A stretch of DNA of 64,000 nt from Ustilago trichophora (Eukaryota; Basidiomycota; Ustilaginomycetes; Ustilaginales; Ustilaginaceae), in the NCBI GenBank assembly GCA_900323505.1, contig OOIN01000032.1:1-64000 (forward strand), in the 5' to 3' direction. A program made the position numbers and the translations under genes. This document shows, piece by piece, positions 1 to 33,400 of this stretch. The stretch's first letter is position 1. Each line of letters starts with the position of its first letter. Under the pieces are notes generated by a model. It saw only the letters and a program-made list of their open reading frames with translations, did no database searches and was not told the origin of the DNA.

Positions 1-179
1 AACCCTAACCCTAACCCTAACCCTAACCCTAACCCTAACCTAACCCTAACCCTAACCCTAACCCTAACCCTAACCCTAACCCTAACCCTAACCCTAACCC
101 TAACCCTAACCCTAACCCTAACCCTAACCCTAACCCTAACCCTAACCCTAACCCTAACCCTAACCCTAACCCTAACCCT
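1..179. repeat. Telomeric repeat array (AACCCT)n
   Basis: Six AACCCT units are followed by one 5-bp unit (AACCT at 37-41) and then 23 uninterrupted AACCCT units ending at 179. On the other strand this is TTAGGG running toward the left edge, so the window starts at a true left chromosome end or its cloned terminus. The array is short, which is usual for fungi. The single short unit could be a telomerase slip or a sequencing error. Confidence 0.98.
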
Positions 180-280
180 CAAGTCGAAAGGAAATCTGGG
201 GGTCAAAGCTGAATTTCAGAGTGGAGGCCAAAATCCCCCCCAACTGGATGGAACGAGACCTCCTGCCAAATGGCTGGAAG
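180..280. other. Telomere-adjacent linker
   Basis: About 100 bases lie between the telomere array and the stop codon of the first ORF. No repeat or coding sequence is evident apart from short C and G runs. The first ORF therefore ends only about 100 bp from the telomere. Confidence 0.6.
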
Positions 281-1306: not shown

Positions 1307-1417
1307 GGCTGGAATGGATGATTGGATTGCTGGCAAGTGGATATGGAACGATGATGGATGATTCTATGGTGGAGCTGGTGTCTACTGGTTGAATCTTTCT
1401 CGAGAGCCCAGCCTGGA

Positions 1418-1579
1418 GGGGGACTTGTCTCTTTCAGCCATTTTTGCTTCGACAAACAGGCAAGTCCCCCTCTGTGCTCACCAGCCAAAATTCATTGCCT
1501 GATTCTCGAAAGCAATTTTGGCTGGGGGACTTGTCATTCTGGACTCTTTTTTACAGCTCCAGAGGCAAGTCCCCCAGCC
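1418..1579. repeat. Nested inverted repeats between the dioxygenase ORFs
   Basis: GGGGGACTTGTC at 1418-1429 faces GGCAAGTCCCCC at 1459-1470. CCAGCCAAAATT at 1481-1492 is the exact inverse of AATTTTGGCTGG at 1514-1525. GGCTGGGGGACTTG at 1520-1533 is the exact inverse of CAAGTCCCCCAGCC at 1566-1579. The arms can form alternative hairpins with loops of about 20-32 bases. The last arm overlaps the 3' end of the upstream ORF. It could be a small foldback element or a transcript-end structure. Confidence 0.75.
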
Positions 1580-2976
1580 TCACCGCACTGCTCCACCCTG
1601 CGCTTCTTTGATGCTGCTTGCCGCTCTGCCTCTTGCTCCTCCTCTGCCTTCCTTGCATAGTATGTATGGTTGTGCTTCTTTGGCTCTCTCTGTTGCTGAA
1701 GCCCTTTGCGGAAGAAGCAGCTGATGGCCATGCGCTCTCCAGGGTCTGATCTTGCCTTTACATGAGCTGGGTGTTGGACGGTGAGGTGTTCCACGCTGTT
1801 GGAAAGGAACATGACGATGTCTTGTGGTTGCAGCTCCACTGCTATGCCATACTCTGGCAGCTGCAAGAGAGCATGTTGTCCGAGGTTGACCAGGATAGAC
1901 ACGTCTGCATCCTTCACGTCTTTGTGCACATTGCTGGAGAAGCCAAGGAATGGTGAGATGGTGGAGTACAGCGGGTGGCAGTACCGGTCCAGGTCATCCA
2001 CTTGCTTCTCTGCCCAAGGGAAGTGGACATCCATGCGCTCTTGAAGCTCTGACCTGAAGGTATCACAGAGACCAGAGTGGCCATTCTTGATGATGGGGAG
2101 AACAAACTTGCGGGTGAACTCTTTGAACCAGATGCAGAACTCCGCCACAGCTTGCCTGCCTTCCTCCCTGCCTGGCTGCTGAGTCTCTTCCAATAGAGTC
2201 AAGCTGACCATCATCTTGTCGTACCAGATGCCAAAGTGGTAGTGTGGAAAGTGCTGCTGCTGATCCACTGTCTGCCGAGTGTCTGCCTTGTGTTTCTTGC
2301 ACTTGGCTGTCTCCATGACCTTGCGGAACAAGGTGGCACCTTTGCTATAGCTCTTGGTCATGCTGGAGGCAGCAGACTCAGTGGCCGGACAGAAGCGCTG
2401 GAGGAAGACATTCCCGGTCTTGCTGTCCTGGAGGCTGATGTTGTGGGTGTAGACTGTGTTCTTGCAGTCATCAAAAGAGGTGATGGCCTGGCCGGTGATG
2501 ATGGGCAAGGTCCAAGAGCACTTTGCCTGCCGATCCTTCTCCATTACCTTGTACTGTTTGTCAAGGGTGTACGTCTTGGCATTGATGGACGCAAGGCTGT
2601 ACTGCAGCCTCTTGATGCGCTTCTGATCTGCTTGAGAAGTGCCGCCAGGTACAGGTATGTATGTCATTGTGGTGTGATGTACCATGGGAAGTGTGATCCA
2701 ACTCAAAGAGACGTGTCCAGTTTGGATTTTGATCCATCTCTTTGAGACATGTCCAGTTTGGATTTTGATCCATCTCTTTGAGACGTGTCCAGTTTGGATT
2801 TTGATCCGTCTCTTTGAGACGGACTGATTTTGAATTTTCATCCATCTCTTTGAGACTGACTGATTCTTGGAATTTGCGCGTCTCTTTGAGATGGACCAAT
2901 TTCTGAAATTTGCGCGTCTCTTTGAGATGGACTCATTCAACCTCATTGACGCGTCAGGCCTCCACTTTGTCTGCAT
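1534..2976 (-). CDS. TET/JBP-like 2OG-Fe(II) dioxygenase with 12-residue repeats (probable C-terminal part of the helicase gene)
   Basis: The open frame gives 480 residues from the ATG at 2976 to TGA. The N terminus carries six 12-residue basic repeats of the type SKRWIKIQTGHV. The C-terminal half has HFGIW, then VHKD near residue 351 (HxD iron ligands), an N-L-G strand, QLPEYG, QPQDIV, a distal His near 398 (VEHLTV) and Arg in RMAISCFFR near 413. These are the ligand and 2-oxoglutarate positions of the TET/JBP fold. The ATG lies only 61 bp below the helicase stop codon, too little for separate fungal transcription units. A GTGAGA donor (3099) and CCAG acceptor (2988) would remove both intervening stops and join the frames exactly (G + AG = Glu). 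I therefore think this is the C terminus of a fusion protein of about 2,101 residues. The tail is Glu/Lys/Arg-rich. Confidence 0.7.
   Translation of the reverse strand: MQTKWRPDASMRLNESISKRRANFRNWSISKRRANSKNQSVSKRWMKIQNQSVSKRRIKIQTGHVSKRWIKIQTGHVSKRWIKIQTGHVSLSWITLPMVHHTTMTYIPVPGGTSQADQKRIKRLQYSLASINAKTYTLDKQYKVMEKDRQAKCSWTLPIITGQAITSFDDCKNTVYTHNISLQDSKTGNVFLQRFCPATESAASSMTKSYSKGATLFRKVMETAKCKKHKADTRQTVDQQQHFPHYHFGIWYDKMMVSLTLLEETQQPGREEGRQAVAEFCIWFKEFTRKFVLPIIKNGHSGLCDTFRSELQERMDVHFPWAEKQVDDLDRYCHPLYSTISPFLGFSSNVHKDVKDADVSILVNLGQHALLQLPEYGIAVELQPQDIVMFLSNSVEHLTVQHPAHVKARSDPGERMAISCFFRKGLQQQREPKKHNHTYYARKAEEEQEAERQAASKKRRVEQCGEAGGLASGAVKKSPE
2715..2937. repeat. 36-bp tandem repeat (coding, 12 residues per unit)
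   Basis: Units beginning GTCCAGTTTGGATTTTGATC start at 2715, 2751 and 2787, exactly 36 bp apart. They are followed by three or four diverged units up to about 2937, each ending in CTCTTTGAGA. All units keep the frame of the dioxygenase ORF and encode S/H-V-S-K-R-W-x-K-I-Q-x-x. The gradient from near-identical to diverged units suggests recent expansion at one end. Confidence 0.9.
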
Positions 2977-3037
2977 TTTCACAGACTCTGGAAATGCAAT
3001 TAATGATTTATTTTGAGAAACATGCAAAGTCTTCTAT

Positions 3038-6000
3038 CTACATAGCCGCTGCTTCTACAGCCGCTGCAAACATGGCAAATGCCAGAAGCATACTCTCACC
3101 TTTGTAGGTCACGGCTGTACCTAGCTCACCTTGTACCACTACCGCATGTGGGTCCATCTGATCCAAGCCAATCAACCGCAGCACATTGGCAGTGTGCTCT
3201 CTGCATCTGAGCACTGCCGCAACTACGGGCAGCACAATGTCAGCATACCTGCGTGAGCATGCTGTAGAATTGGTTGAGCTGGTGTTGGCGCAAATGTTGA
3301 TGGGAACCAGACATGCGTAACAAGCAATGTGCTTTGCTTTCTGCATGCGGCGCTTGAGGCCGCCAATGTAGGTTGCATTGATGCGTGGCTCTGATTGTGG
3401 CAACTTGTCCTTGATTTGCGGCCAGCAGTTGCAGTTGCTGAAAGAGTGTCGGATTCCATGTTGTCCAGAGCATGTGTGCTGGTTGCGGAAGAGGTAACAC
3501 AAAGAGCACACACCGGCAAGGCTCTGCAGTAGCGATCTGCTGCTTGATGTGTCAATGTCAATGTGCACAGGTGGATGTGCCGGTGATGGACTTAGGCTGA
3601 ATGCAAATGGCGGAGGCGTAAAACTGAGAACCGGCAATGCTGGCTGAAGCTGGTTTTGAGCAGTGGAGGATAATATCTGGTTTGGCGCTCCTCTGCTTGC
3701 TGAGTGCTGATGGTTCAGGTCTAGAGCTGCCGTAAAACCTTGATGCCGCCGCTGACGTGGTGTAGGTGAATCCAAGGCCGTGGTGCTGACTTGCAACCGC
3801 CTACTGCTGCTGTTTGCAGCTTGGAGTTGACCAGCAGTCTGGGTCTTGCCATTCTGCTGCCGCTCACGCTTGTCAGACTCTGGCGGTGACTCCAAGCCAA
3901 TGATCTTCTTTGGCGGTGTGACTGGTCCTTCCACACGCTGCTGGCAGAGGTCGCACAGCGCAAAGTCTGGCTGGCTGAGGCAAGTCACCGGCATTCCGTC
4001 CAGATAGCGTGAGATGGCCAGACGCCGGCAAGTACGCTCCTCTATGTAGAGCTGCACCTGTGCTTCACGTGTTTGGACTCTGGTGGCCAACAGCACCGCT
4101 GATGCTCCACTGCCACTACGTCCAGCGCGTCCTGACTCTTGCACGTAACTGACCATGTCCCATGTATCACCGCAATGGACCACCAGACTGACATGTTGCG
4201 GATTGATGCCTGTGCCGATAGCTGTTGTTCCAACAATGACGCGTTTGCCAGTGTTGGTCTCTGTGGCAGAACACCGCAACCATGTTGAAACCGTTCTCTG
4301 CTTCTGCTCCTCTGGCATGTCTGCGATCACGCAAGTGCAATTGAGATCCTCCGCTGTGGTTTGTGCTGCAGTGGTGGACTTGCAGAAGATCATCACTGCA
4401 CCGGCAGGGTGAGCTTCAAGGAGACGCTTGATTTGGAATGGCATTTCCACACTTGATGTAAGTTGCTGGACCTTGTAGGAGATGTTTTTGCGGTTGGTGG
4501 CCGCCCTGATCATGCCAGTACCATCTTGCGGGAGACAGAGTGTGGTCTTGAAGGTGGGAACCAGAGTTGGTGGCAGCGTAGCCGTAAGGAAGTACTGCTG
4601 CACCCGCACAGCAGAGATGAGTGCCTTGATCTTCTCCATTGCCGGACGGAAGGTGTTTTGAGTTACGCAGACATGGCACTCATCAAAGAAGATGGCTGCC
4701 AACCGCTTCTGCTGATCCAACTCTTGCGCCCAGTTGGCAAATGCTTGACTGTAGCAGTTCTCTGCTGCAACAAAGACCAGCTGACTGCCCTCTACTCTGT
4801 CTGCACTCCGGTAGCCTGTCCACTTGCTTGCCACAATTCCAACCCACTGACACTGCTCCATCAGATCATCTGTGAGTGCAATGAATGGCACCACCACAAT
4901 AATGACAGAGGCTGGCGGCAGCCAATGCAGCGGTGCCATGAAAAGTGCAGACTTGCCGGACCCAGTGGCCATGACAATGATCAGTGGTGTCTCCTTGGCA
5001 TAGATGGCATTGAGCGCATAGGCCTGCTCCAGTGTCTTGGTGCGGTGGCTGCCGGTCACCTTGAAGAGTGCATTGCTGACTGGTTCTGCTAGCACAGCAG
5101 AGCGTGAAATGGGGGCAGCAGGCACCGCACTTGTAGCGCTTGGTGGAGCAACTTCAATTGGATGCTCCAGCCTTTGCTTGACACACCGCATGTCCTCCTG
5201 CAAAGCATCCAGCTGCCGCTTCAGTGAAGATACTGCCTTGCAGTCATCTCCTGCTGCCTTTCCTGCCATGAGGTGGTCATATGGCTTGACGTCCTCTTCA
5301 AAGCGGGATGGCATACCCCAGAATGCATGCCACCGCTCTGACACTTCCAACATGACATCCATGCTCTCTTGCGTGAGCTGATGCAGCATGCTTGCATCCA
5401 GGCCATAGTGCTGCTCTGCAGTCCGTGTTGAATGTCCAGCTTGAAGATCGTGAGCGCTGTCCAACACCTCTTCTGCAGTCATGGACCTCGGACAGATGAG
5501 CTTGCGGTCAATGCTCACTGCCAGTTGCCGCCAAGTGCGCATGTTGAGGCCAGCCGTGATAGAGCTGATGTGCTCCTGGCAGAGTGCTTGCAGCATCTTG
5601 GTGACGGCATTTGTCTCCCATGCATTGCCGTGATGGTCCACCAAGAGCATAGAGCTGGCCGCACGGGGCTGCAGCACTGCATTATGTAGGAGATGGACAA
5701 ACGGCACCACCTGAGCTACGTAAAAGACCACCATGCATCCCACTGGGTATGGCAGGAAGCGTGGAATCACCTTTTGACGTCCAGTGCCTTTCTTGCTGGG
5801 CAGAGCGGTGAAGACACTGCCATCATGCACAAAGAGGTTGCGTGGACCAACAAGCGTGTTGGTGTGCTGCAATTGGAGCAGCTCTGTACCTCTTGCAGGC
5901 AGACCGCTACCAAGCTCAATGAGCACCGCAAGCAGCTTGGTGAATTCATTGTGCATGCTGAAGTACGCATTGGCAGCATCTGCATCGAACTCCAACTCAT

Positions 6001-8027
6001 CAGAGTATGGATCCATGAGGGGTTGCGCAGCAGGTACGTTACCAGCAGCAGCACGGCAGAGAACACTGCTGATGCTCTGCAGCTCCGGAGAAGCGGCCAC
6101 AAAGCTGAAGTCTGGTTGCATGTTGCGGTGATCATCCAGAATGTGCTTCAGGTTGAGCGCAAGTGATGCATCCTCTGGCAAAAGGCAGAGCTGACGTAGC
6201 AAAGCTTCTGCCCGCTTTTGCGCACCATGCATCAGAGCTTGGAGACGGTCCACTTGGATGGTCTCTGTTCCAAACTTGACGCTCTTGAGATCTTGCTGCC
6301 AGGAAAAGTGGAAGTTGGTGCCATCATCTTGCGCAAGTACTGTGCCATACCGGTGAAGGGATTGTAGGTATGAGCTGGCGGAGCTGCTGGTGCTGTACAG
6401 ATAGCGCTTCATCTGTAGATCAACCTCGGCAGCAATCTCCTCAGCAGAGCGCTCAATGAGCACACCATCTTCTGGATCCAACAGCCACTGCCAGAGCACT
6501 GCACGGCAGCAGAACTCCAAGCTGGCAATGATGGACGTAGCGGCATTGACGGGAATGGGAGTGCCATCTGCGCTGACGCAGAGGTGGAGGAACAGCCGTA
6601 CCAAAGCAAGCTTGTCATTCTCACCATACACCTCTGGCTGTTGCGTGACCAAGAGGTGAGAGAGTTGGAGGAGGAGCGGCACTGCCTTGCTTGCCAGATC
6701 TTCATCAGTGAGCGGATCAATGTCTGCATCTGCACCGTAGTAAAGATCATGCAGATCTTGCAGTACAGAGTCCAGGTGTGCGCTGAGACCAAGATGCTCA
6801 GTCTGGTCACTGTCACCGTAATAACCAAAAGAGACACCGTCAAAGACCGCATGGATAAGCAGAGCAAGTAAAAAGGCCCACATGTCCGCACGTTTCTTGA
6901 CTGTTGGTAGGCTGAGGTTGTACGGCTGGCTTGGTTCAGGACTGTAGGCACGGAAAGTCTGTTGCACCTGCCTGCCAGTCTTGAGGAAAGCCATCATCCA
7001 TGTTGCGGCTGCTTGCTGTGTCATGACCAATACCCAATGGACAAAGTCTATATGAGCACCAGGCCACACCTTTTTTGACTTGCTGAGTGCGCCGATGGCC
7101 ACAATAGGCTTGCCAGCCCAGTACGCATGCCAACCCAGCTGCTTGGCCCAAGGACCAATGTTGCCGCTGGCAGATTCAGGCTGAATGCCTGGCTTGAGCA
7201 GGTCTGCTTCACAGAGGCAATCTTCATTCTTCTTGAGGAAGGCATCCACCTTTGTCTTGATATTGGCGCTGATGGTGCTGGCATCCAGAGCGGTGGTGAG
7301 AATGGCAGGAGGCGGTGTGGGATCCAGATCTTGATTGCGGACGTGAAGGTAGCGGATCTTCTTGCCGCACTTGTGCAACTTCTGCATGGGAACAGGATGG
7401 GTGTATGATGCTCTGCCTTTAGCATCAGGATGCCCACGCAGATGCTCGTAGAAAGCAGACTTGGCTTGGACGGCATAGGAGCACAAGTTGCAGCGGTAGC
7501 CTTGGAAGAGCTCACCCAGCTCAGGAATCATGCGCTCTGGCAGAAGATCCTTGTTGATGCAGACCGTGCCAGGAGACGGTACATCCAGTTCATCAAGGAG
7601 GCTACGCAGCATATCCTTGGCAGACCCAACCAGCGGCTTCTTGTGGACCTTCTTGATGTGAGCCGTGACGTGCTTGAAGTCTGGGATGAGCGGCAATTGA
7701 GGACAACAGCTGTCCAGGGTGCAGAGCAGGATGCGGGGATGGTCCACCAAGCGTAAGTTGAAGCGTGCCAGCTGAGCGGTGTGCTGAGGATCCACTGGAG
7801 TGGAAATGGTGGTTTCTTGATTTGCGGCTTGGTTGGCAGCAGGGAGAGCGTGACTGAATTCAAAAAATGCAAATAGTGATGTCAGCTGCTGATCATTGAT
7901 GATGTGTGGTGATGATTGCCCAAACATACCTGTCCGTATCACTGACTGCGTCCATTGTGTTGATGCCTGCATCAACAAGTTCAGCAGCAAGTATGCTGTC
8001 ATCAGGATGGAAAGATTGCTGAGACAT
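3038..8027 (-). CDS. Telomere-linked RecQ-type helicase with C2H2 fingers and tyrosine-recombinase-like domain
   Basis: Exon 1 is 8027-7930 (ATG, 32 codons plus 2 nt). A 76-nt intron (GTATGT...CTGAC...TTCAG) joins it in phase to exon 2, which runs from 7853 to a TAG at 3038; alone this gives 1,637 residues. An upstream ATG in the unspliced frame (8002) is a weaker start. Domains in order: C2H2-like fingers (one near residues 152-175, CNLC...H...H); a tyrosine-recombinase-like region with RGTEL near 685, RTWRQLAVSI near 802 and GHSTR...HYG near 839-850; then a superfamily 2 helicase with ATGSGKS near 993, DECH near 1088, TAT, and QESGRAGRSG near 1271; and a Cys/His-rich tail. RecQ-like ORFs are known in U. 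maydis and other fungal telomere-associated sequences. The frame probably continues by splicing into the dioxygenase ORF at 2987. Nuclear DNA action at chromosome ends is inferred. Confidence 0.88.
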
Positions 8028-8140
8028 GGTTGAAGAATTTGCTGGCGGTGGATAAAAGTGGTAGAGTACGGTAGAGAGAAGCTGGAATGGATTGTTGGAT
8101 TGATGAGCAATGACGGTCAGCAACGGTCAGAAAGGCACAG

Positions 8141-8147
8141 TATATAT
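8141..8147 (-). promoter_or_regulatory. TATA-like element of the helicase gene
   Basis: TATATAT lies about 115 bp upstream of the proposed helicase ATG at 8027, a typical distance for a fungal core promoter. It supports the exon 1 start. A direct repeat of AACGGTCAG lies between it and the gene. Confidence 0.4.
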
Positions 8148-9400
8148 GCTTCAGAGGAGACAAGCAGCGCACATAGCAAGCACAGTCAGATGTACACTGT
8201 CAAGGATTCCAGCAAGCGTAACGGGTTACAGCAACAGCCACTTGAAGCACACAATGTGTCCAAGAGGGAAACGTACAAAGGTAAGATGGTTTCACTTGCG
8301 CTCACACTCACGCAGACACACACCGTAAAGCAATCAAGACAAGAAAGGATAGTGCAGAGCTGTGAGCGGTGTGGAAAATTTTGTTTCAGTGACGGACAGA
8401 CAAAGCTGTGTGGTGAGCAACAAGCAGACAAAGATGTGTGGTGTGTGACGGACAACAGACAACGGACAACAGACAAAGGTGTACAGCGTGTGAAGGACAG
8501 ACAAGCATGTGGGTGCATGGCGGACAAAGGACAAGTACGTCAAAGTCAAGCTGTGAGAAAATCTGTCTGTCAAACACAAAGCTCACTCAAAGCAAAGGTC
8601 CGCACTTGGGAGCATCTGAGTTAGCTTTGTTGGTTCCAGCCGTGAGAGTCATTGACTGTTGTCTCAACATTGTCCTTCACACGCTTCCAGACAAAGGAGC
8701 CATGACTTGACGGACCAGCTGCTGTTCAGAGTGCTGTTGAAGGATGTACACGCTGCCAAGATGAAATTACTGAAATTTGACGCGTCTGTCAGTCAGTCAG
8801 CGCAGACGCGTCTGTCAGTCAGTCAGCGCAGAGTCAAATTGTGCGCGGTGCAATTAGAATCTGTCTACTCATGCCCAGACACATCACGCTCCTTGCTCCA
8901 AGGACACATTGCGCTCTCAATTTTGAGGCCAGCATTCTGATCAGATTTTTGGCAGACATATTTTTTGACATTGTCCGTCAGTGTTGACATTTGAGCCTTG
9001 TCTGTCTGCTGCAGTCCATGGGTACACATTGGTCACCGTCACACATCTGATCACTGCATATGTCTGCAGCACGGGTCACTTCCTCAATCATGTCCGCCAG
9101 TCAGTCACGTCTGTCACTTCACCAAGTCAGTCAGTCAGTCATGTCTGTCACTCATGCTGTCTGCCAGTCAGTGAAGTGACGGACAGCTCAGTGAGTCTGC
9201 TCCATGAGTAGGCCGCTCAGCCAAAAAAGTTGGATTGGTCTGTCAGGCACTAGAGAAGTGTGGGTGAGCGTGTCTGTCACGCTAGCAATTTCCCTGAATT
9301 TTGACGCGTCCGTCACCCACCTGTCCGCTGCCCAGCCAAGGAAAAAGAATTTTCCGTTGCGGCACTGCACCAGTGTTTTTTGACGCGTCCCTCAGGCTGA
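8148..9400. other. Non-coding subtelomeric segment rich in short degenerate repeats
   Basis: No convincing gene. From about 8390 to 8545 the sequence is a mosaic of GACGGACA, CAACAGACAA and GACAGACAAG words. From about 9090 to 9190 CAGTCAGTCAGTCA and GTCTGTCACT words recur. GACGCGTC palindromes occur at 8779, 8805, 9303 and 9382. This looks like telomere-associated repeat DNA upstream of the helicase. Its right edge at about 9400 coincides with the 5' truncation of the next gene. Confidence 0.6.
8779..8830. repeat. Two perfect 26-bp tandem copies
   Basis: A 26-bp unit beginning GACGCGTCTGTCAGTCAGTC occurs at 8779-8804 and again, unchanged, at 8805-8830. It is flanked by AAATTTGAC on the left and GTCAAATT on the right, so the pair sits inside a short inverted repeat. 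Confidence 0.9.
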
Positions 9401-9406
9401 CGGAGC

Positions 9407-11335
9407 GTGGTCAGGTTGGCCATTTTGGCAGGACGGACTGGTGCTTCTCCTGCGGCTGGCGCACCGCAGCCTAGGGCTAGGCTATGGGCGGAAGTTGCGC
9501 CTCGCTTTACGTGGCTCATGTTCATCGACACCGATTCCAAGGTAGCACCCCTCGCCGGTCCACAGGTCCGCCTCGCCTCGGCGCGACTTGATGCCAATGA
9601 ACAGCTCATGGTCATCCCGCCTTTCTCCAGACTTGGCTTCGATGCTGTTATTCAACACGAGCTTGAGACGTTGCGTCAGCCCCTCTTGTCGGGTCAGCTC
9701 ACCTATGGTCGACTCCTCGACATACTCAGTTGTTTCGGTCGTCCGCTGTGGAGTACCAGCCTCTATCGCTCTGTCGATCATCCGCGACGGCCTCATGTTG
9801 CAAGCATCTTGCTCAAGCTGCTTGGCAAAGAGCGATGGCCCGACGTCTGGCCCAAACCCACGCGCGGCAATCTGGACTTTGCTGATCCAACCAGCTCCTT
9901 CTTCAAGAGCGTCATGGCCATCGCTGGACAGCACTTGCCCCTCCGCTTCGTTGGTCATCAAGGGGTTCAGCTTCTTCACAAAGGCAGGTGGACCCCTTCC
10001 GCTTCTAAGCTCGCCGAATCTGCTCAAGCATCAGTGCAATCTGAATCAATCAAATTTCTCCAAGATCAGGCGTCGCACCACTTGCGCGTCATCAGCAAGG
10101 TGCGCGACAACATCAACTTTTTCAAGACCTCAACCGTCTCAGAGCCAGCACTCTCGCTCTCAGTTGCCACTCTGTTCAGAGGCTTGACTGTCTCAGACAG
10201 CACGGACAGCGCGTCCGCGTGTGCCTCAAAGTGGTCTTGCATCATCAAGGTGCTAAGTCACGCTCATCGCGCCATTGGCCTGATGCTGGGCGAAGAGGGT
10301 GAGGAAGGCGTCCGTCTACTGCTGAGCATGGCTGCTGACCTGGTCGCATTGCAGCGTGTCGAGCAATTGCGTGAGATGACTGTTAGTGAAAAGCTAGACA
10401 ATAAGATAGCCATCCCCGGCCTCGTTTCAGCACAATGCGATCCTATTTGTTTGCGCGACTGGCTCGATATGCTATTTGGCAAACAGAACCTCGACTCTAA
10501 ATTGCGTCTGTGGGCAAGCCACCACTATCTCAACTTCACGCACTATCTACGGCTCAGCACATATGTCTACTCGGACAAGCAGCACCGCCGACTGGAGTGC
10601 AACGCCCTGGTCAAGTACTGGATGCATCAAGTTGCTTTCTACGGTCTCGACAAGCAACCCGGATGGGACCTCGTGATTCCCATCTACCGGTCTGATTACA
10701 CGCCACCCACCAACTCGGACTTGTTCAATCCCGCCAACTTGTCGTATGTGGCCATCCAAGTCAAAAACTGCAAGAGCGACATCAAGGCGACGCGATTCTT
10801 TGGTCCTGCCTTGCGGTCCAGCAGCGACGGTGGCCTCGACTCGTCGATTTTGCAGAACGGGTGTTTGGAGATTTTTGTTGATCTTCGATCGCCGAAAGTG
10901 ATGCATTGATTCGAGATATTGCAACCGACCGAAGACGAGAAACAACAAGCCCCGCTTAAGCGCCTTCATCTCACTGTCGGCGGCTGCAGCGCGCAATCGC
11001 TGCCGCTGATCAGCTGCTTGACGGATGAAGCGTTTGGTTTAATCAAGCTGTTGTTGGGACACATCGAGGCCGACACACCCCTAGATTCTGGTCGGGCAAA
11101 GCTGGACCAGGCTCTCGATGCTGGTTCACCTCACAAGGAAGAATTTGAGCGTCTTCAGAGCATTATTGACGGCGACGGCCCTGCATATTTGTGGGAAGCG
11201 CACCGTTATCCGACAAGGCGCAGCACCACAGGCATTCCTTGGACCAAAAAGCGAACAGCTGACCATATCGACGACGACAGTGTCAATGACAGTAATGATG
11301 GTGATGTTGCCATGGCTTCGGCCCAGGATGGGTAG
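9407..11335 (+). pseudogene. 5'-truncated Crinkler-like PD-(D/E)XK nuclease gene, copy 1
   Basis: One frame stays open from about 9407 to a TGA at 10907-10909 and continues in the same frame to 11335. There is no ATG at the left end (the first in frame is 9509), and the sequence begins in the middle of the homologous region, just before LMFIDTDSK, which matches IIIDTNIRI in copy 2. The NTPase half is missing. The C-terminal half keeps the nuclease signature: QPGWDLVIPIY followed by YVAIQVKN, the D...QxK pattern of PD-(D/E)XK enzymes in Crinkler-type proteins. Text after the TGA (HLTVGGCSAQSLPL, then an acidic tail) still reads like the family C terminus, so the TGA looks like a mutated Trp codon. 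Probably non-functional; function in these fungi is not established. Confidence 0.7.
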
Positions 11336-21476: not shown

Positions 21477-24400
21477 CTACAAGACGGCGCGCAGCTTTTC
21501 AATCTCACCAACAAAGCTATCGCAAAACGCTTCGAGCTGCGATTCATCCATGGCGGATCTATCACACCGAGCTCCTATCGAAATTGTCCCTGCCCCTGCA
21601 TCCAGACCCACATCCATGTAGAGCTGTGCACCGCCCGAGCTCCTCTTTGCGTTCAAAGCACCGGCATCTACAGTAGTTCTACCCGGCATCATAGGGTGGC
21701 GTGTGAAGTAGTCGCTGTCGTGCCGCAGCTTGTGCGGTACTAGCAGCGCAGCCGTTGCTTCGGACTCCTCACCTTTACCTCTTGTTACAGTCGGTTTGTG
21801 CCACAAGAGATTCAGGTGGGCGTCGAAAGCTACAGGTGATTCGACATCGTCCTGTTGGTGCTCAGCTCGACGGACAAGCTCCATTTGGATGGATCTGAGC
21901 CGTTCCAGCACGTTTTCCCCACTTGCAGCCTTGAATCCCACCGCTACTGTCATTGGCTGCATTGATGTCGTTGGTCCCACCAGTTCCCCCAGACCATCAA
22001 ACGCAGAGGATCGGCCTGCCGTGTAAAAACCAAACGTAGGAGATTCAGGCTCCTTCTCGACCGTCTGCGATGACAGCAGACGTGCGTACGCCAGAATCAC
22101 CACAACTTGTAGCCCAAATCCATATGTATGGCATCGAGCTTCCATGTCATTCGCACCCTTTATAGCTGCCTTCCGAACGTGCATCGTCTGCTCGATCGAC
22201 TGCGCTGCACCTTGGCACACCAGTGTCGTCGAAGAATTGTGCAAGATCTCGTCCCAAAACACTTTTCTGACAGCTTGAGTACGCATAGCCTTGCGACATG
22301 TCTGTTCGACAAACCGAGTGAAGCTGACAGGCGTTCGCATTGTCTCGAGATTTCCCGTCTCGACAGCTTGGTAAAGCTGTGCAAGTTCGTTCGCCATCAG
22401 ACGCATGCTCCAAGCATCGTAGCTCGTATGGTGAAAGGTAAACAGAACAAAGTCTTTTTGTCGGCCTTGCACCAGCGTCAACCGCGCAGATGGCCTCGAC
22501 AGATCCGTGGGAGATGCATTCAGCCTCTTCACCGCCTCAAAGGCTGCAGATTCTGCGTCGTCACCGCCGTCTATGCGTGCCAAGTGGCTGCGCTCAAAGT
22601 CTCGCCAGAGTGAGCTGCTCTCGTTCAACACTACCTGAATCAACGTCTCTCCATCCTTCAAACGTACAAAGGCAGTTCGAAGTGCAGCGTTACGTCGACG
22701 CAATTCAACCCACGCAGCCTCCAGTGTCTTGGCGTCGAGCTTGTGTGCAGCGGAATAGACAAATGTGGGCTCCAGAAATCTTCGACCGCGCTGCAGCCAG
22801 AGGTCGATGTGTTGCTTTTGCCCTGTCAGTACGGGCAACACGGCCTCAACTTCTGTAGCAGGAATGTCTAGCATCTCCAGCGCCTCTTGTCTGGCTGGAC
22901 TGCTGATCAATGCCGCCTGTGCCTGCTCCGTGGTGACTGCTTCAACGTTGTCGAAACTATAGCCTTGCTTGTCAGTAGCGACAGTCATTTTGGAGAATGT
23001 GCCCGCCGAAAGTACATCGATCGGAGTCAAAGGCACCTGATCGTTTCGAGCATCACCCGAGATGCAGATGGCCAGCAACGAATCGATTCCCAGAAGGAAG
23101 AGGTTAGGACAGGCCTTGATCGTCGCTGTATCGACTTTGAGTCGCTTTGTCATGTGTCGCAGCACAATGGCCTGCTCTTTGCTACTCAGACCACGACGCC
23201 CTTCGCCGATTCCTGTGGAGAGGTGGCCGTCTTGCTGACTGCCATCTGTGGTAACGGCGAGAGGAAGAGTTGCAAGAGCTTCGGGGAAAGCACCGACTGG
23301 TCGGTTGGGTCGCACTAACAGGTCCATGAACACCTCTACAAACAGCTGCAACATCTGTGGCAGCCACATCGCTCCTCCGACTCTATCGCTAGCTCCTGCT
23401 TTGATCAGCACCACAACGTCATCCTGAATCACCGAAATATTGACAGGATACTCGGATGCCGCTTCCATCTCTGTCTCCGACACGCCCTCTTCCACTCCAA
23501 GCGAGTTTGTGGACGCATCGATGCTGGTCCAAAGATCCTGCCCAAGGTCGGTAGGTGCTTTGGACTTGCCTTCAACATTGTGAAACACAAACAGGCTATC
23601 GAACAGCGTTCTCTGGGAGCCTTGCGCTCGCCTCCAAGCACCCTGAATGCGTGCCAGCGATGCATGCTGGAAAGGCTGTGACGCAACAATACGCTCCTGT
23701 AACTCTCGTGTCACTGTACCATTCGACAAGAAGTCGTTCTTCAGATTGACTCGGATAGGCACGGTGTTGATGAGCGGACCGCTGATATCCTCGATTCCAG
23801 GTAAAGCAAGGTAGCGTCCAGATACGACTTGACCAAAACAGACGTCACGCTGCCCTGAAGATACAGCGAGCACCTTCGACCAGCTTAGCAGTGCAATTGC
23901 TTGCGGCGCTACACCTAGTTCAGCGCAAAGTCGCTTTAGCTCACCCGTAGTAACGGGAAGACGCACCTCGTCAAGTCGATACGGTATCAGAGATTTTGCT
24001 GCTGCATGTGTGGTGGGGTTGACCAGCAGGCTGGGATGTTCGAAGTTGTCTAATGTTTGCTGCCAATACTGCTCTGACTCCTGGGCAGTTGAAGCAATCA
24101 AATCTGCTGCGAGTGAGAACGGCGGATGGACAATTAGCTCTGTTGCCTCATCGCAGTAGGCAGACCGAAGATCTGCAAAGAGAGACGGCAGAGAAACACC
24201 ATCGTACAAGCTGTGATGCATCGAGACGACCATAAGATCCTGCTCGGACGCACAATGTAGCACTGCAACACGCCAAGGGCTGACGGCGAATTGCTCTGGA
24301 CGGTCGAAGCAGAAATCAATTCTGTAGTCTTGCAGCGCCTGTGAGGGGCTCTTATCAAAATGATGATGCAATATTTGTATAGGGAGGGCACCGACAGGAG

Positions 24401-27400
24401 CCACCTTGGCAGCCCACGATAGAGACTTCTGCTCTGCATCGCTTTCCATGTGGAAGCCCGTGCGTAGGATATCATGCGAAGCTGTGACGCGCTGCAAAGC
24501 TCGCTGCAGTCTCTTGTAGTCGAGTGCCTGTTTCAACTGTACAGCATGATGGTGAACGTAGAGGTTGTGTGATCGAGAGCTCAACGTCCCATTCAGCATG
24601 CCTGCTTGCAAAGGTGTTGCCGTATAGATCGTCGAGCCCTGTTTTGATGACACGGGAGTAGTTGTCTCGTCTTCCGCTACATCTTGCCCTTCAGTAAGCA
24701 GTTGCGAGAGATTTGCAATCGTTCCGGTCGAAAGAACATCGTGTGCGCTCAGCTGAAGCCCGTAGTCCTTCCTCAGACTCGCTGAGAAGCGCAGTGCAAC
24801 AATGGAATCGAGACCAATGCGCAGGAATGGGGTGTCGAGTTGAAGCAGGTCGGCGGGAGACACACTGCACATGTGGACAGCCAGATCGCGGATTTGCTTC
24901 TCGACTTGTGTCATTGGCCGGGAGGTGCCTGTAGCCTGGCCGCCTACCCGAACAGTCCTGGCTGTTGGAGAGGAAAGTGGGACACCTGCTGCCTTCAGAT
25001 CCACCTCGGCGGCTTCACCCGAAGCGATCTTCTCGAGCAGAAGGCACAAAGTCTCCATCACTGCGTCAAGCCCGTCACTTGGAAGCAGGTACCTGACCAA
25101 AGCCGAAATACGAAGCTCGTCGTTGGTAGCATCAGCAGTGACCTCAAATGCAGCTGGGGCATCCGTTTCGGCATTGACTTGATCCAGGTGCCAGCTTCTC
25201 TTCTCTTGACTGTTACCAGTCGCGTTCATCTGGATGAAGCTGAACAATACGTCAATGAGCGATCCTTGGCGTTCTGATCCGGTCCATCTGCGAATCTGAC
25301 GTATCGAAGTGTGCTGGAAGGCAAGACACGAACTGTTCCATTCGTAGCAAGCCGAAACCACATCCCGGATACTGCGCGACCCTCGATCAACGCATAGTGA
25401 GAAAGGCATGGGTACCGTCGTGAGACACGGAGCAACGATCTTGTCTGCAGAGATGTGGTCAAGGGAGCGACCCCAGAGCACATTGCCAAGCGTAAAAGCT
25501 GTGGTTTCCAAGGTTTGACTTAACACGATACCAAGAGCGGCCGCTACTAGTGAAGAAAGCGTTACCTGTTGCTTTTTCGCGGCTTCTTCAAGTGGACCGA
25601 GCTGCAATCTGCCACGACAGCGAATCGAGCCCGAATCAGCTCGAGGGAAGCGGCTCCATGCGCTTGGCTCGCTGACGGGAAAGTCCGCGAAAGTTCGGCA
25701 CCAGAAGGTTTGAGCTTTCTGGGTCGGAACGGCCAAGATCGATCCGATGAGCTCCTCAACTCCAGGCTGATGGTCATCCCTGTTCTCTCCTTCATCTCGG
25801 AGTATTCTTGCCAAATCATCGAGCAACAAAGGAAGCGAATGGCCGTCGTACAGTGCGTGGTGCACATGTAAGACAAACGACCCCATGCGGATCGCTTCCT
25901 CATCAACCTCAATGCGCCATGGTGGGACCGCAGTGATGTTTTTGAGGATCTGAAGGGCTGTTCTGGTATGATCTTCGTCTGTTCCCGCATGCACAATGTG
26001 ATTTTCGAGAACGGTCTCGGCCAACACCACCTGCGCAATCGTATCGTCATCTGCGTGATCAAAACACGTACGCAAGATGCTGTGTCGCTGAGCCAGAGAC
26101 AACCAAGCACGTCCAAGGGAAGCTGTTGAGCAAGCACCTTGCCCAAGGGAATCAATATCAAGACGCACTTGCATGCGCGCAACATAGACCGGCTCGCTGT
26201 TGCTTGTGAGAGACAGCGCAACCATGCCTTCCTGTGACGGCAGACAAGGTAATACATTTGCCAGTCGTTCTCTTCGTGGCGCTTGGAGATTCTCCCTATG
26301 ATGAGCTTGGAAAGCTTTCAGAGCTTTGATTCCCATCGCAAGATCAAGATCAGCGATGTTCTCGTCACGGCCTTGACTGGACGAATCTGATGCGATCTGG
26401 TGGATTCGATGACGCACACGAAGTCGACTGATGGGAATGATCAATCCCATCTTGCGCAGCTGACCAGCCAATTTAATCACGCTGAGACTGTCGATGCCTA
26501 GGTCAAAGATAGAAGTAGCTGGACGGATGTCCGTGGGACACTGCGGGAGGGCAAGGCGTACTGCCCTCACCACCTTCATCTCGACAATTGAGAGGGGACG
26601 CTCGGCATCGACCTTAGCACCATGACCAGGACTGCTTTGACCGCTCTGGAAATGAAAGAGTTGTGCGAGGTCCATCGATGCAAGCCAGGATTTGAGTTTT
26701 CGTGTATCAGTCTTTCCCGAAGCGGCCAGTTGGGTAAGGTGAGACAAAGCGACAACCAAGTCTGGCACCATGTAGCTCGGAAGATGCTGTTTACAGTGCT
26801 GATGTACCTGCTCAACCAATTTGCCAGTCTCGGTAGATGCCTGAAGGATTTGAGGCAGCAAATCGTGTCTCTGCTTGGTTGAGATGTCGGCCTTTGGGGT
26901 AATCAATGTGATGAGGACCGGCTTTGCAAGACTTCTAGGCTGGCAGATTACTGTTGCAGCATTGATCCTTCCATCAGCTCCGTTGATTGCGCACTGAGAT
27001 ACCTCTCCGAGCTCTAGCCGCTGGCCACGGATCTTTTCCTGGTCATCGCGTCGACCGAGGTAGTGCAGACGCCCATCCGCCATCATCCTGACTGCATCTC
27101 CAGTTCTATACATCCGCCTTCCGTCTGGAAGCCGTAAAAATCCGCTCGTTGCCTTTTGCGATGGATCGAGGGAGTGGTAGCCTAAGGCGACAAGGTCACC
27201 TTGAATACAGAGTTCTCCAGATCGCCCACGCAACACAGGACAGAGCTGATCTCTATCGTCAAAATCGATAACCACTGCAGTGTTGCCCGGTAGCACGTGT
27301 CCAATGTCACGCACATGGCTGTCGGCACGTACACGATTGACAGTGCACATGATCGTCGTCTCCGTAGGTCCGTACGCGTTAAGGACGGTGAGTGAGTTGG

Positions 27401-30400
27401 CCAGCGTATCTCGAACTCGGTCGGTCAGTTTTTCTCCGCCAACACCGAGGAACACCAACGAAGGCACCTCGTGAGCAATAAGGTCACACTGGTCCAACAA
27501 CGAAGGCACGCAACTCATGTGCGTGATTGCCATCTTTTGAATCGTACCCTTGAGATCGCCAAGTAGTAATGACCGCTCACCTGTTGCGAGTGCCATGCCA
27601 AAACGCCACGACATGAACATCTGAGAAAGATGCACGTCAAATGCTCTACCTGCCAAGCCCAGATAGCGTCCTGTGCCTCCGAGTTGTAGAGAGACCGGAC
27701 ACTCCTTGGAGACCACCTCGGCATAAGACTCGACAAAGCTGCACAAGTTGGCACGTCCCACGAGAACACCCTTCGGTTTCCCTGTCGAGCCAGAAGTGTA
27801 GAGCAAATAAGCACCGTCATCTGCTGAGGCATTGGTGGAGGCAAATTGTTCCGCAGCACGCTCGCCATCGTCATAATTCAAGGCAAGCAGGCGTTGCCCG
27901 AAGGAGTTGTCGCTGACGTTCAGTACTAGGCATTCGCAATCGTCTTCAGCATCACCAAGGCAGTCCTCTTCGGTAACCACCAATGCACAGCGACTGTCGG
28001 AAATCAAAAGACGCTTGCGTTCGGCTGGCAATTGGTCATCGATCGGGAGATAGGTTCTTCCACACTTGAAGATTGCAACGGTGACCGCGATAGAGATCAA
28101 CGATCGTTTCATGCACAAAGCGATCGGGCCCTCTGATGGTAGACCGAGCGTCTTGATCAAAGCAACTACCTGATCGGCTTGGCGTTCAAGTTCTGCATAA
28201 GACCAAGTCGATAGCGCAGCATCGTGGATGGATCCGGTCTCGAAAGAGCTTGCAGCAATCATGACGGCAGGCCAAGATGGATGGCTCTTTGCATGATGAT
28301 GAAGCCAGTACAGCGGATCATGGTTGTGGCAAATAGCGCTTGGTACCTCTGTAGGAGGAGAAGCTCGCGGAATGGTGCTTATCGAGGCTAGAGATTCGTT
28401 GATACGCCAGACCTTCTCCAGAAGCTGTTGCACCGTCTCATCTGGACTCGCTAACATCACAGAGAGCATGGCGACGACTTGGTCGAGTAGCATCGCTAAC
28501 ATCTCCTTCGAAATGCGGTCCTCCTTCACGGAGAGCTCCAGAATGACCCCATCGCCATCGCATTCGCCTTGCTCGAAAACATTGAGGACCGAGCTGTGCT
28601 CGACGCGGATTTCGGTTGAACTGTTACCCAACAGCGTCCAACGATCTTCGTCGTCCGAAGAAATTAACTGCTGTGTACAATCACCGTCCAACTCGGGCTT
28701 TTGGTGGTAAACGTACATGGCTGTGAATATCTCCTGATCGGGTCCTGTGCCCATGATCTTGGCCAGATCTCCGAGAGAGGTGAATCTGTGCTTCATAGAC
28801 TGATGTACGACAGCATCACCTTGAAGCAGCGACTGCAAAGACTCGCCCTCCGAATCTGCAGATAGTAGCAGCGAAAAAGGTAGTGTGGCGAGGAGCGGGC
28901 CCACAGCTCCTTCCTCGATGGAGAGGGAGGGATGTAAGTTTCGAAGAGACAGAACTTCTCCCAGTACTATGTGGCGACGCTCTCCGCTCTCGACGTACTG
29001 CGCCAATACCACGGCAAATGCTATTTTGATCAGCGTTGAGATTCCGGCAGTGAGAAGTCGGGACGAGCTTGGTCTGAAAAGTCGAGAGGCAGCAACGAAT
29101 GTAGCCGACGCAGCTTCGGTCGAAGGTTGTTTGACACTCGTCAGGTCTGGAAGCATGGCTGCTGGTCCACGCGCTTGTAGGCGTGTTTCCCAATACTGAG
29201 TGCTATCCCTTTGCTCTTCTGCAGTACACGCGAACGAATACTTGCATTGAGCTGAGAGAGAACTCGGAGCTGGGAGAGCAATAGCTCGCTGGGGGCAATG
29301 AGCTGCGCTGTTCGGATCAAGCGCTGCATATTCCGCACGAACTCGGTTCAAGATTATCCGAATCGACGGTCCATCGTACAAAGCATGATGGATACACAGT
29401 GCCGCATATACGGCACTTTCACCTTCGCCATCATCGACTTTGAAAGTTTTGATAGCCCACAGCGGACTTGCTCCAAGGAAAGCATCTGCACGATCGAGCG
29501 CCACCGATTTTGTCCATTTTGTCACTGCTTGGTGCATTTCTTGCTCCGAATGAAGAGTGTTTGGACTTATCACGTCGATGCAAGAAGCATCCACGGATTC
29601 GTACAGCATTTGCAGCGCAAAGACATCGAGTTCGCCATCAAAATATACTGGACCGTCTACACCTTCAGTCTGAGAGACGATGGCAAAGACGGTACGCAAC
29701 ATCTGATGAGCAGTAACCGTACGTTCCCATGACTGTGCGAAGCGATTCAAATCCACAGCGACCCCAAGACGAATGACGTGGTCCGTCCAGTACGCCAAAG
29801 GATCTGCCAGCGTTTCTGCCAACATGCCGCCTTGTAACATACTGCAAGGATACACCGCCTCGAGACTGTCTTGCAATCGCAGTGGCAGCAGCTTGCGGAC
29901 ATCAGTGTCGAATTCACTGAGCTTTGTCGTGAGGTGCTGAATTCTGGAATCATGCACTTCCCCTGCACTCGCTTGTGTATGTTGCTTGGCAAGTTCATTG
30001 ACGAGCATGCGCACCGTTGAACAAGTCAGCAGCGTCGAGATGTGAATTTTCATTCCTTTCTGCTTGAGCTTGACGGCAAGGCGAATGGCTCGGATCGAGT
30101 CGAGACCAACGCTGGGGAGTGAGCTGGTACCGTGGATATCGAGCATTTCTGTTCCAGTGATTTCGCTGATCGCTGCGATCACCTGAAGCTGGAGCGCTCT
30201 GTAGGCCTCGTCACTCTCTTGTTCTAGCACCCGTGCCACATCCTTCGAGGAGGACGACAAGTCCCATACTGAAAGGTCGGCAGATGTGTAAGCTGCTTGA
30301 AGCTTGGCACGATCAATCTTTGCGGAAGCGGTTTGCGGAATATGTGACAGCACAAGGATCATTGACGGCACCATGTAGGGTGGCAACACGTCACGAACTT

Positions 30401-33400
30401 CCCGCAACGTCCAATGGGCAAGGTCAATGGCACCGGCATTCGTTAGCAGTATGTCTGTTGATGACGCCGACGTTCCCAATGAGTCAGCGGAAGAAGCGAT
30501 GTCGGGACAGGCGAGGAAACCAATCACCTGCTTGGAAGGTCGATCAGGCCGACTCAACATCATGACCTCGGCTCGCTCCACCAACACCCTGCCCTGTCTT
30601 TGTACAGAGACGATTGCCGCCGAGATCTCACTAAGTTCGACCCGGATACCGCCCAGCTTGATCAGGTCGTCACGTCTTCCGATGAACTCAATGCTGCCAT
30701 CGTGAAGCATCCTGACATAGTCTCCGGTGTAGTACAGCCGCTGCTGCAGTTCATTCGAGAAAGTGAAAGCAGCTTTGGTCTTTTCCTGGTCGTTCAGGTA
30801 GCCACGACCCACCTGCTTGCCCGCTAAAACCAATTCTCCGACAGCTCCCTTGCCGCAGGGCCGAAGTGGCTGACTTCGATCTCTGCAAACGAAAGCATTG
30901 ACACTTTGCATCGGCAAGCCAACGTTGGCACTCTGTAGTTTGTCGTTACGATCAAGGCGACGTAAAGTCGCGACAACAGTCACCTCTGCTGGTCCATAAG
31001 TGTTATACACTGCGATCGGGGCAAAGTCTTCAGCCCGACTAGCACCGGTCCAGTCAGCTGCGACCGCCTCTGTCAGCTTCTCGCCGATGAAAGTGACCGA
31101 TTTGAGGCTGGGGCAAGAAGCTCTAGGCAAAGCTGCTGCAAAGGCGGGCGTGAGATGCGCATGGTTCGCTTGAGAGGCCGCAACAAGCTCAGCTGTCGAT
31201 CCTAGCATGATTTCACGTGTCGCTGCTATCACCGTTCCCCCCAATCCCCATGTCCAGAAGAGATCTTGAACAAACACATCGAACGTATATGCTGAGAACT
31301 GCAAGCAGCGTGGTGGTTGTCCCTCTTGCGGGGGACGCACATGGTACTGCAATGCTTGCATACTCGTTACGGCGGCACTGTGTTCGATCATGACTCCCTT
31401 CGGTGCTCCTGTGGTACCACTCGTCCAGATCAAGTAGGCAAGCGTGTCTGGCGCTGCCGACGGCTCGAGATTGTTGGAAGAGAGTTGGCCCGATTGTCGG
31501 AGATCGCAGACATCCACTCGAAACAGTTTGGCCTGCCCCTCTTCTTGGATCACGCCAAGACTAGCCGATGTGAACGGAGTTACCAAGATGATGTTGCTTC
31601 GTGTCCTAGCGATCAGCTCTAGCTGTCTGGCCCGTGGAGACTGGACGTCGATCGGACACCAAGCACCTCCAGCCTTGAGAATTGCGAGCACTGCAATGTA
31701 CATTTCTGCACATCGTTCCATACAGATAGGTACAGGCTGGTCGCAGAGTGCCGTCTTACCCGTCAACGACAACAAGTGCCTGGCCAGACGATTTGCACGG
31801 GCATTGAGCTCGGAGTACGTCCAGCGTTGCGAAGAACTTTTCGCATGAGAGCTCAAGGCTGTGAAGAACTCGAGAGCAATGGCGTCAGGATTGCTAGCAG
31901 CTATACATTCGAATTCAGAATGCAGCAAAGTTTTCTTGGCAGCTGGACTAGCAATTTCGCTGTTGCGAGAGATCGAGAGCGCTGTGGAGCGCAGAACTTC
32001 GCCATTAAGTATCTGAGCAACAGTTGTGGTGTCTGGTTCACTCATCAGGCGATGCAGCACGTCATCGTACTGTTGTAGCAACAGCTTGGCCGACGAAGCA
32101 TCCAGAACAGATCGGGAATACGTCAAACGCAACCGTAGCCCCTGTTCAGCTTGATTTGAGGGCCACACCTCTACCATAATAGCAAAGTCGTTCGCCATAA
32201 CTGGATAAGAAACCGATGTCCATGGTGCAGATGCATAAGCACTGTCAGGAGCATCGAAGCGCTGCACAGCGAACAAGGTGTCAAACGGCATGCCTCCCGA
32301 AGAAGCGAGTGCTCCAAGCGGGATCTCTAGATGAGCCAAAGCAGCCGTGCTAGCTTTCGTCGACTCAACAAGAAGTTGCTTTGTGCTCGTGTTGTAAGGC
32401 TCGTTCCCTTTTTTCCCCATACGAGTGATGAAAGGGATCACATTAAAGGTCGGGGCCATGCAGGAGCGCGTACGCTCATCGAGTCTTCCGGAATGAACGC
32501 TGCCACTGATGACATGATCGACATCTTCATCTTCAGCGTAGGCTGCGAGAATAAGGTTCCAAGCAGTTTGCATCAGGACCAACGCAGTAGTTCGCTGATG
32601 TCTTGCTTGCTTGACGACTTCATCCATCGACGAGCGCGAACGCAATTCCAGAACTGCACTGCTGGTCGCTAACTCAACCTGCATCTTCGTCTTGATGCCG
32701 TTGACGCAAGGGAACCGTGTCGTGCCGATGCCATCGAGCTTCTCCCGCCAGAACCGACGCGATCCGTCGAGTTCACCTGTGAAATGATGACGGACCGCGC
32801 TCTCGATCTCTGTGCAGTTCGTAGCTGCGGCTCGATTGACACAGTTGTCTATCGAGGCAGCTACCTCCTGTTGAATCAAGTCCAGGCTGCCTCCGTCAAA
32901 GATAGCATGCATCATGCTCAATACCACAAAGCTTTCCGCGCCTTCATCGTCTGTATTAGACAGCAGAAGGCCAAGGTGCCAAGGGGGCCGATCCAGAGTG
33001 ATGCTGCTATCGACACGCTCCAAGTGCTCCTCCAGAGATGTTTTTAGAGAAGTCCTTGAGATGTGTTCGCTGACATTGCCGTCATAAGATCCTGGGGAGA
33101 GGATGCACTGCGCGAATGGTGCAAGCTTGTCATCGATCGGAACAAACACTGTTCGATAGATATCGTGCCGCTGAGTGGCCAGTTGGAAAGCCTCGTAGAC
33201 GTGGCGAGCTTCCGATGCGGAAGCCATGTGATAGACAGTATGATTGATGTACGATCTTTTGGAGCCAGAGGAGGTAGCCCGAGTCAGAAAGCTCGTCAGC
33301 ATGCCAGATTGGGTTGCCGTGGTGGGGAGAATCCCACGCACACGCCTTCGCGTTTCTTCGTCAGTCAAAGCTGCGAGCACTCCGGGGCGACATCGAAGCT

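Follow-up and report, generated by a model that had tools for sequence, protein, structure and literature searches.

Helicase and TET/JBP-like dioxygenase genes at Ustilago trichophora telomeres: separate genes of a probable end-attaching element

Telomere-linked helicases are said to have been described in smuts in a 1998 paper on the telomeres of Ustilago maydis, and the TLH genes of Magnaporthe and tlh genes of fission yeast are likewise telomere-linked RecQ helicases. In the passages on them in PMC10532341, PMC7593156, PMC4466345 and PMC12857005, the telomere-linked helicases of U. maydis, Sporisorium scitamineum and Fusarium oxysporum are subtelomeric repeats with no settled role, the F. 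oxysporum account counting helicase-containing regions, full and truncated alike. TET/JBP genes are found on fungal mobile DNA in TET+ DNA transposons, which the consulted text of Kojima (2025, PMC12730594) describes as DDE-type or Helitron elements of Pucciniomycetes, Agaricomycetes and Pezizomycetes (rusts, mushrooms, morels), and where these genes are proposed to undo silencing by methylation; searching its main text for words beginning with Ustilag and for Crypton, RecQ and tyrosine recombinase gave no occurrence. Here we analyze a stretch of 64,000 nucleotides (nt) of U. trichophora, contig OOIN01000032.1 of assembly GCA_900323505.1 (the window), in which a RecQ helicase gene and two TET/JBP-like dioxygenase genes, diox1 and diox2, adjoin a telomere. 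Our results show that the helicase and diox1 are two neighbouring genes on the same strand, not one protein as an initial annotation of the sequence had proposed, and suggest that they belong to a repeated element that attaches to chromosome ends.

In the genome search the window is the left end of contig C31 (C numbers denote contigs) of an assembly of 38.8 Mb in 45 contigs; the telomeric position and smut origin assigned by the initial annotation are correct. Because another U. trichophora strain has a genome of only 20.7 Mb, according to a table in PMC8951962, the assembly probably contains two haplotypes, in line with the apparent pairing of its DNA methyltransferase loci, and counts of ends are therefore counts of contig ends. 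Searching the genome with the helicase (28 of 68 candidates scored) returned full-length genes in 22 of the 28 scored matches, one of them with an internal stop, on 22 different contig ends. All 22 read toward the end and lie 0.26-8.0 kb from it, the placement of a telomere-linked helicase. In 21 copies diox1 follows directly downstream, intact in 17 and broken or cut in 4, and the 22nd helicase runs off its contig; a complete diox2 is present at 17 ends and a partial one at another, and 281 intergenic nt show 100% identity across 21 ends. A diverged end, on C12, keeps the order helicase, diox1, diox2, telomere. The block of helicase, diox1 and diox2, reading toward the telomere, is shown to recur at 18 to 22 contig ends. 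A third TET/JBP-like gene, diox3, is found at C2 and, judged by coordinates, at six further ends plus one partial occurrence.

The initial annotation had joined helicase and dioxygenase across a short intron. The features it invoked are present on the minus strand (a stop codon at 3038-3040, an ATG at 2974-2976, a donor GTGAGA from 3099 and an acceptor CCAG ending at 2988, giving 112 nt in phase 1), and its total of 2,101 residues is correct provided that a 76-nt intron at 7929-7854 is also removed. The latter intron (GTATGT..CAG) is supported by the annotated UTRI_00931, which has the identical N-terminal join. The 112-nt intron at 2988..3099 (-) is rejected, as it spans the last 20 codons of the helicase, which are conserved: nine of ten aligned helicases, five of the nine from smuts, finish in a shared motif (approximately YKGExxxLAFAxFxAA) no more than 14 residues before the stop, the tenth, from Tilletia, being distant. 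Eight of the 18 relatives found stand outside this alignment: five (P0017, P0022-P0025) end early, P0019 begins the C-terminal tail and then departs from it, and P0026 and P0027 are distant. The C12 helicase, 51.7% identical over 1,406 codons, reads GQRVLLAFAIFVSAMDAMSLFG-stop at the tail position, lacks a GT where the donor would be, and differs from the window tail at 8 first, 2 second and 13 third codon positions; the C43 copy has GC at the donor place, but that copy is decaying. The ATG at 2974..2976 (-) is rejected as the start of diox1, since relatives begin at a methionine equal to position 2667. Nine of ten dioxygenase relatives start there, a choice that is partly the gene finder's because the proteins are predictions; P0004 has the same methionine preceded by an extension of about 40 residues. 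The C12 DNA carries an ATG at the equivalent of 2667, preceded at a distance of 105 nt by a TGA in the same frame.

The tandem array between the two genes has a counterpart in C12 (L030:1323-1530) with a 37-nt period and the palindrome CGGCTCTCAGAGCCG, and because a 37-nt unit cannot hold one coding frame the linker array is non-coding. Palindromes thus occur every 36-37 nt at the same place, with different sequence, in two lineages, and look like putative protein-binding sites that may co-evolve with their protein. No fused protein was found at E<=10 when residues 1600-2101 of the joined protein were searched among proteins 0.55 to 1.75 times the query length (4,883 candidates sharing short words scored), and relatives showed neither kept splice sites nor a contiguous frame. 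Public annotations give two consecutive genes in both U. trichophora (UTRI_00930, 377 amino acids, and UTRI_00931, 1,637 amino acids) and U. loliicola (NDA16_004184 and NDA16_004185).

Some observations weigh against two genes and in favour of a single spliced protein. The proposed GT-AG sites connect the two frames in phase and are retained in every telomeric copy read, and the 309-nt linker is open in one frame (the other five have 2-8 stops each), with 81 in-phase GT-AG pairs, 5 of them consensus-like; 200 Markov-resampled linkers had on average 1.02 joining pairs and 0.055 consensus-like ones, and 2.5% had a consensus-like pair at all. The openness is unusual but is explained by the tandem unit, since 36 is a multiple of 3 and the codons are not independent, and the retention of splice-like sites by the near identity of the copies. 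Because the 112-nt intron would remove conserved coding sequence, the diverged copy combines a missing GT with an in-frame stop and a repeat unit of 37 nt, relatives start the dioxygenase at the equivalent of 2667 and the one search for a fused product found none, the single protein of 2,101 residues appears highly improbable. The initial annotation is partly confirmed, in that its open reading frames, splice-like sites and domains are real, and its 112-nt intron and fusion are unconfirmed; the zinc-finger-like region, tyrosine-recombinase-like domain, RecQ helicase and adjoining TET/JBP-like dioxygenase stand, and their union in one protein does not.

The helicase protein combines a zinc-finger region, a tyrosine-recombinase fold and a RecQ helicase. 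For the last, DEAD and Helicase_C matched in Pfam with E-values of 3.3e-14 and 1.1e-14, and the list of PDB matches is headed by WRN, RecQ1, RecQ5 and BLM. The recombinase domain displays the catalytic fold of the family, with the R, K, R, H and Y residues kept in 14, 14, 12, 12 and 14 of 14 helicases, respectively. Tyrosine recombinases usually carry a His three residues before the second R; in these helicases that position holds R, H, L, A or N. No Pfam or PHROGs profile matched the domain, and hhalign, with shallow profiles, gave the tyrosine-recombinase match a probability of 0.2%.

Sequence comparison supports diox1 as a TET/JBP-type dioxygenase. Its predicted catalytic residues are H248-K-D250 and H294, for the Fe(II) site, and R312, the 2-oxoglutarate residue of the TET/JBP site. 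The other two dioxygenases, diox2 and diox3, have corresponding residues, although in diox3 the distal H is offset by one alignment column. A profile of the diox1 family matched only Tet-like dioxygenases in PDB at E<=1 (E ~1e-3); H-x-D and the distal H align with chains 5cg8 and 4lt5, and the match ends before R. The Tet_JBP assignment in the initial annotation finds a partial counterpart in Pfam: diox1 matches at E 4.5e-5, below the curated cut-off. Matches at E<=0.1 occur in five of nine family members, the scores being 22.6-24.6 bits against the 34.9 required (protein E 4.5e-5 to 6.6e-5), and nothing genome-wide exceeds the cut-off. The 24-25% identity of diox2 to diox1 comes with no Pfam match for diox2 at E<=1, and in the interior paralogue P0010 (UTRI_00407_B) the metal-binding histidines, that of H-x-D and the distal one, have been lost. 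These weak scores and losses would suit an account in which the dioxygenases are relics, or act on RNA, thymine or N6-methyladenine (6mA), and have no part in silencing. We consider that account unlikely, given that H-x-D, the distal H and R persist in the three telomeric genes and that pN/pS values of 0.43 (diox1) and 0.37 (diox2) against the C12 copies, with synonymous sites near saturation, fit proteins that have been kept. Single interior TET/JBP-like genes (L034-L038), that of P0010 among them, have no helicase within 1.5 kb. Upstream of diox2, the inverted repeats GGGGGACTTG / CAAGTCCCCC span 1416-1579, and C12 has AGGGGGCCTTGCC / GGCAAGGCCCCCT at the corresponding place (L030:2910-3166).

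The proximal limit of the repeat was located with a 2,401-nt query across position 9481 (40 of 45 candidates scored), for which 38 of 42 rows stop at query positions 1382-1390, or 9481-9489 in the window. The remaining rows are the window itself, one flank-only match, an inner piece of the C28 copy and a 74%-identical C43 piece ending at 1361. In the 13 junctions read, the element ends in ...GGCGCACCGCAGCCTAGGGCTAGG, with small variants, and is followed by 12 distinct flanks; C41 and C30 share one flank, and the C41/C30 and C2 flanks are different points of one repeat. A fixed terminus with different flanks, as expected of a mobile element, is seen on the proximal side, the distal side being telomere or truncation in the copies read, and the suggestion in the initial annotation of a mobile element's own enzyme was a correct lead. 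Next to the terminus, the window holds a host frame cut off by the element: in the C16 copy of this flank, the frame is open across the junction and through 140 fetched codons upstream, a part absent from the window. Window and C16 share AGG at the junction. Eight junctions were compared with an intact site, and the seven informative ones share 3, 4, 4, 3, 1, 0 and 0 nt, one of the 4-nt values holding if a third CTAGGG unit is assigned to the element. The junctions at C30 and C7 lie within another copy of the element, and at both C30 and C2 the outer terminus starts at the point where the helicase of the inner copy breaks off. This is the pattern of putative one-ended attachment to truncated chromosome ends, which would leave no target-site duplication.

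We therefore favour, as the probable reading, separate genes on an end-attaching element with its own DNA-modifying enzymes, the steps of attachment, capping and escape from silencing included. The element would attach to broken or eroded chromosome ends, its telomere-like CTAGGG terminus joining the end, sometimes with AGG microhomology to the target, through the recombinase and helicase parts of the helicase protein or through host repair. Telomerase would then cap the outer copy, and copies would stack head to tail with the inner ones cut on their distal side. The substrate of the dioxygenases is probably 5-methylcytosine, the oxidation of which would keep the element from being silenced; the genome has cytosine DNA methyltransferase genes. 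Four PF00145 loci, on C32, C38, C24 and C19, look like two pairs; one pair has frames of more than 2,500 codons, and one gene has a 598-amino-acid frame containing PCQGFS and ENV, which we take to be methyltransferase motifs by role. The repeat might instead be a family of host telomere genes comparable to yeast Y' or to telomere-linked helicases, spread by end-to-end recombination and not moving by itself. The identity of the intergenic stretch at 21 ends would agree with this, as would the description, in the passages on them, of telomere-linked helicases as subtelomeric repeats in smuts, blast fungus and Fusarium; but gene conversion alone would not be expected to give one constant terminus joined to 12 different flanks, to cut off a host frame or to truncate inner copies at the start of outer ones, and we judge a host family to be unlikely.

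The repeat is further marked by its CpG content, for which expected counts were obtained by synonymous resampling under the codon usage of two genes nearby. In the helicase coding sequence, CpG free of TCG on both strands numbers 167 against 174 expected, and TCG-context CpG numbers 11 where about 144 are expected (99 under the codon usage of the helicase gene itself). The TCG-context CpG of diox1 is reduced to 5 against 29, its other CpG also being low (23 against 35), and diox2 shows the reverse, with 20 TCGA against 10 expected and 2 CpG in all other contexts against 57 (29 with own usage). By block, TCGA makes up 24 of 29 CpG and VCGB none in 181-1533, and VCGB makes up 202 of 218 in 1534-8027 and 58 of 58 in 8028-9500; no TCG/CGA occurs between 9001 and 9481, the first being at 9502. 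The C12 copy shows the same split in weaker form, with 2 TCGA and 16 one-strand TCG among 55 CpG in helicase plus diox1 and 38 TCGA among 52 CpG beyond diox1. A more speculative proposal, to which we attach somewhat less than even credence, is that this is a new class of telomeric mobile element, in which a recombinase-RecQ protein adds copies to broken ends by a CTAGGG-type terminus, a resident TET/JBP set rewrites telomeric methylation, and the opposite CpG contexts are the footprint of two sequence-specific regimes of methylation or oxidation.

Also near this telomere, and judged by eye from their translations, are large peptide-synthetase-like frames of 4,191 and 660 amino acids and an ABC-transporter-like frame, listed within 21477-36049 (-) and 41652-45758 (+), and a 417-amino-acid frame at 62491-63744 (+) with extended stretches of Ser/Gly and Asn/Thr/Gln and an N terminus resembling a signal peptide.

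Table. Coordinates of features in the window, and of diox3 at C2 (aa, amino acids)
Feature	Position	Strand	Basis or remark
Telomere repeats (CCCTAA)n, chromosome end	1..180	+	Sequence
diox2, second TET/JBP-like 2-oxoglutarate-Fe(II) dioxygenase, 341 aa	281..1306	-	H-x-D...H...R kept
diox2 upstream region, inverted repeats GGGGGACTTG / CAAGTCCCCC	1307..1533	.	
diox1 (UTRI_00930), TET/JBP-like dioxygenase, 377 aa	1534..2667	-	ATG at 2667
Non-coding tandem array, 36-nt period, palindrome CGTCTCTTTGAGACG	2699..2938	.	
Helicase gene UTRI_00931, 1,637 aa	3038..8027	-	One 76-nt intron, 7854-7929
Conserved C-terminal helicase tail GESMLLAFAMFAAAVEAAAM	3041..3100	-	
RecQ helicase domains DEAD + Helicase_C	4112..5029	-	Pfam, PDB profile matches
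Tyrosine-recombinase-like domain, borders approximate	5282..6034	-	Catalytic residues, fold
Recombinase catalytic codons	R 5891-5893; K 5789-5791; R 5528-5530; H 5432-5434; Y 5405-5407	-	
Element 5' region upstream of helicase	8028..9481	.	Repeat-rich, no TCG-context CpG
Proximal element terminus, CTGCGG-N8-CCGCAG (6-bp stem), then CCTAGGGCTAGG	9450..9481	+	
Host frame cut off by element	9482..10909	+	C16 (L068) copy continues past junction
diox3, third TET/JBP-like gene, 306 aa	L049:2128-3045		Inverted, nearest telomere at C2

Among known systems, the fungal telomere-linked RecQ helicases (UTASa/UTASb of U. maydis, TLH of Fusarium) resemble the present gene in their RecQ domains, subtelomeric position and many copies at ends. 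The passages describing them mention no tyrosine-recombinase domain and no dioxygenase neighbours, and compared with those descriptions the repeat analyzed here differs in its fixed proximal terminus and its two or three TET/JBP-like genes. If the helicase is the recombinase-helicase of an end-attaching element, its copy number, position and truncated arrays would be explained. TET+ DNA transposons, in the account cited above, share with this element the presence of TET/JBP dioxygenase genes on fungal mobile DNA, but have DDE-type or Helitron carriers in other lineages, unlike the smut element; the list of known carriers would then gain a telomeric member of recombinase type and extend to smuts, and a fungus would be at hand in which methyltransferases and element-borne oxidases can be studied jointly. 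The literature searched, with most subscription papers outside it, links TET/JBP genes with transposons of other kinds and not with telomere-linked helicases, and a search combining tyrosine recombinase, RecQ, telomere and fungal terms returned nothing relevant. HeT-A and TART are telomeric retrotransposons with many truncated copies at ends; in the passages on it, FoTeR is likewise a chromosome-end element with many truncated copies, as here, and MoTeR is another telomeric retrotransposon named beside them. Unlike these, the element shows no reverse transcriptase among the Pfam matches of helicase, diox1 and diox2. Cryptons and Starships, the latter through their captains, are eukaryotic mobile DNA with a tyrosine recombinase; here the recombinase shares one protein with RecQ, and the copies lie at chromosome ends, where a single terminus but no two-ended insertion was observed. 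The JBP2 protein of kinetoplastids combines a dioxygenase with an SNF2 helicase in one protein and is linked to telomeric base J, whereas in the U. trichophora element dioxygenase and helicase are separate genes and the helicase is of the RecQ rather than the SNF2 type.

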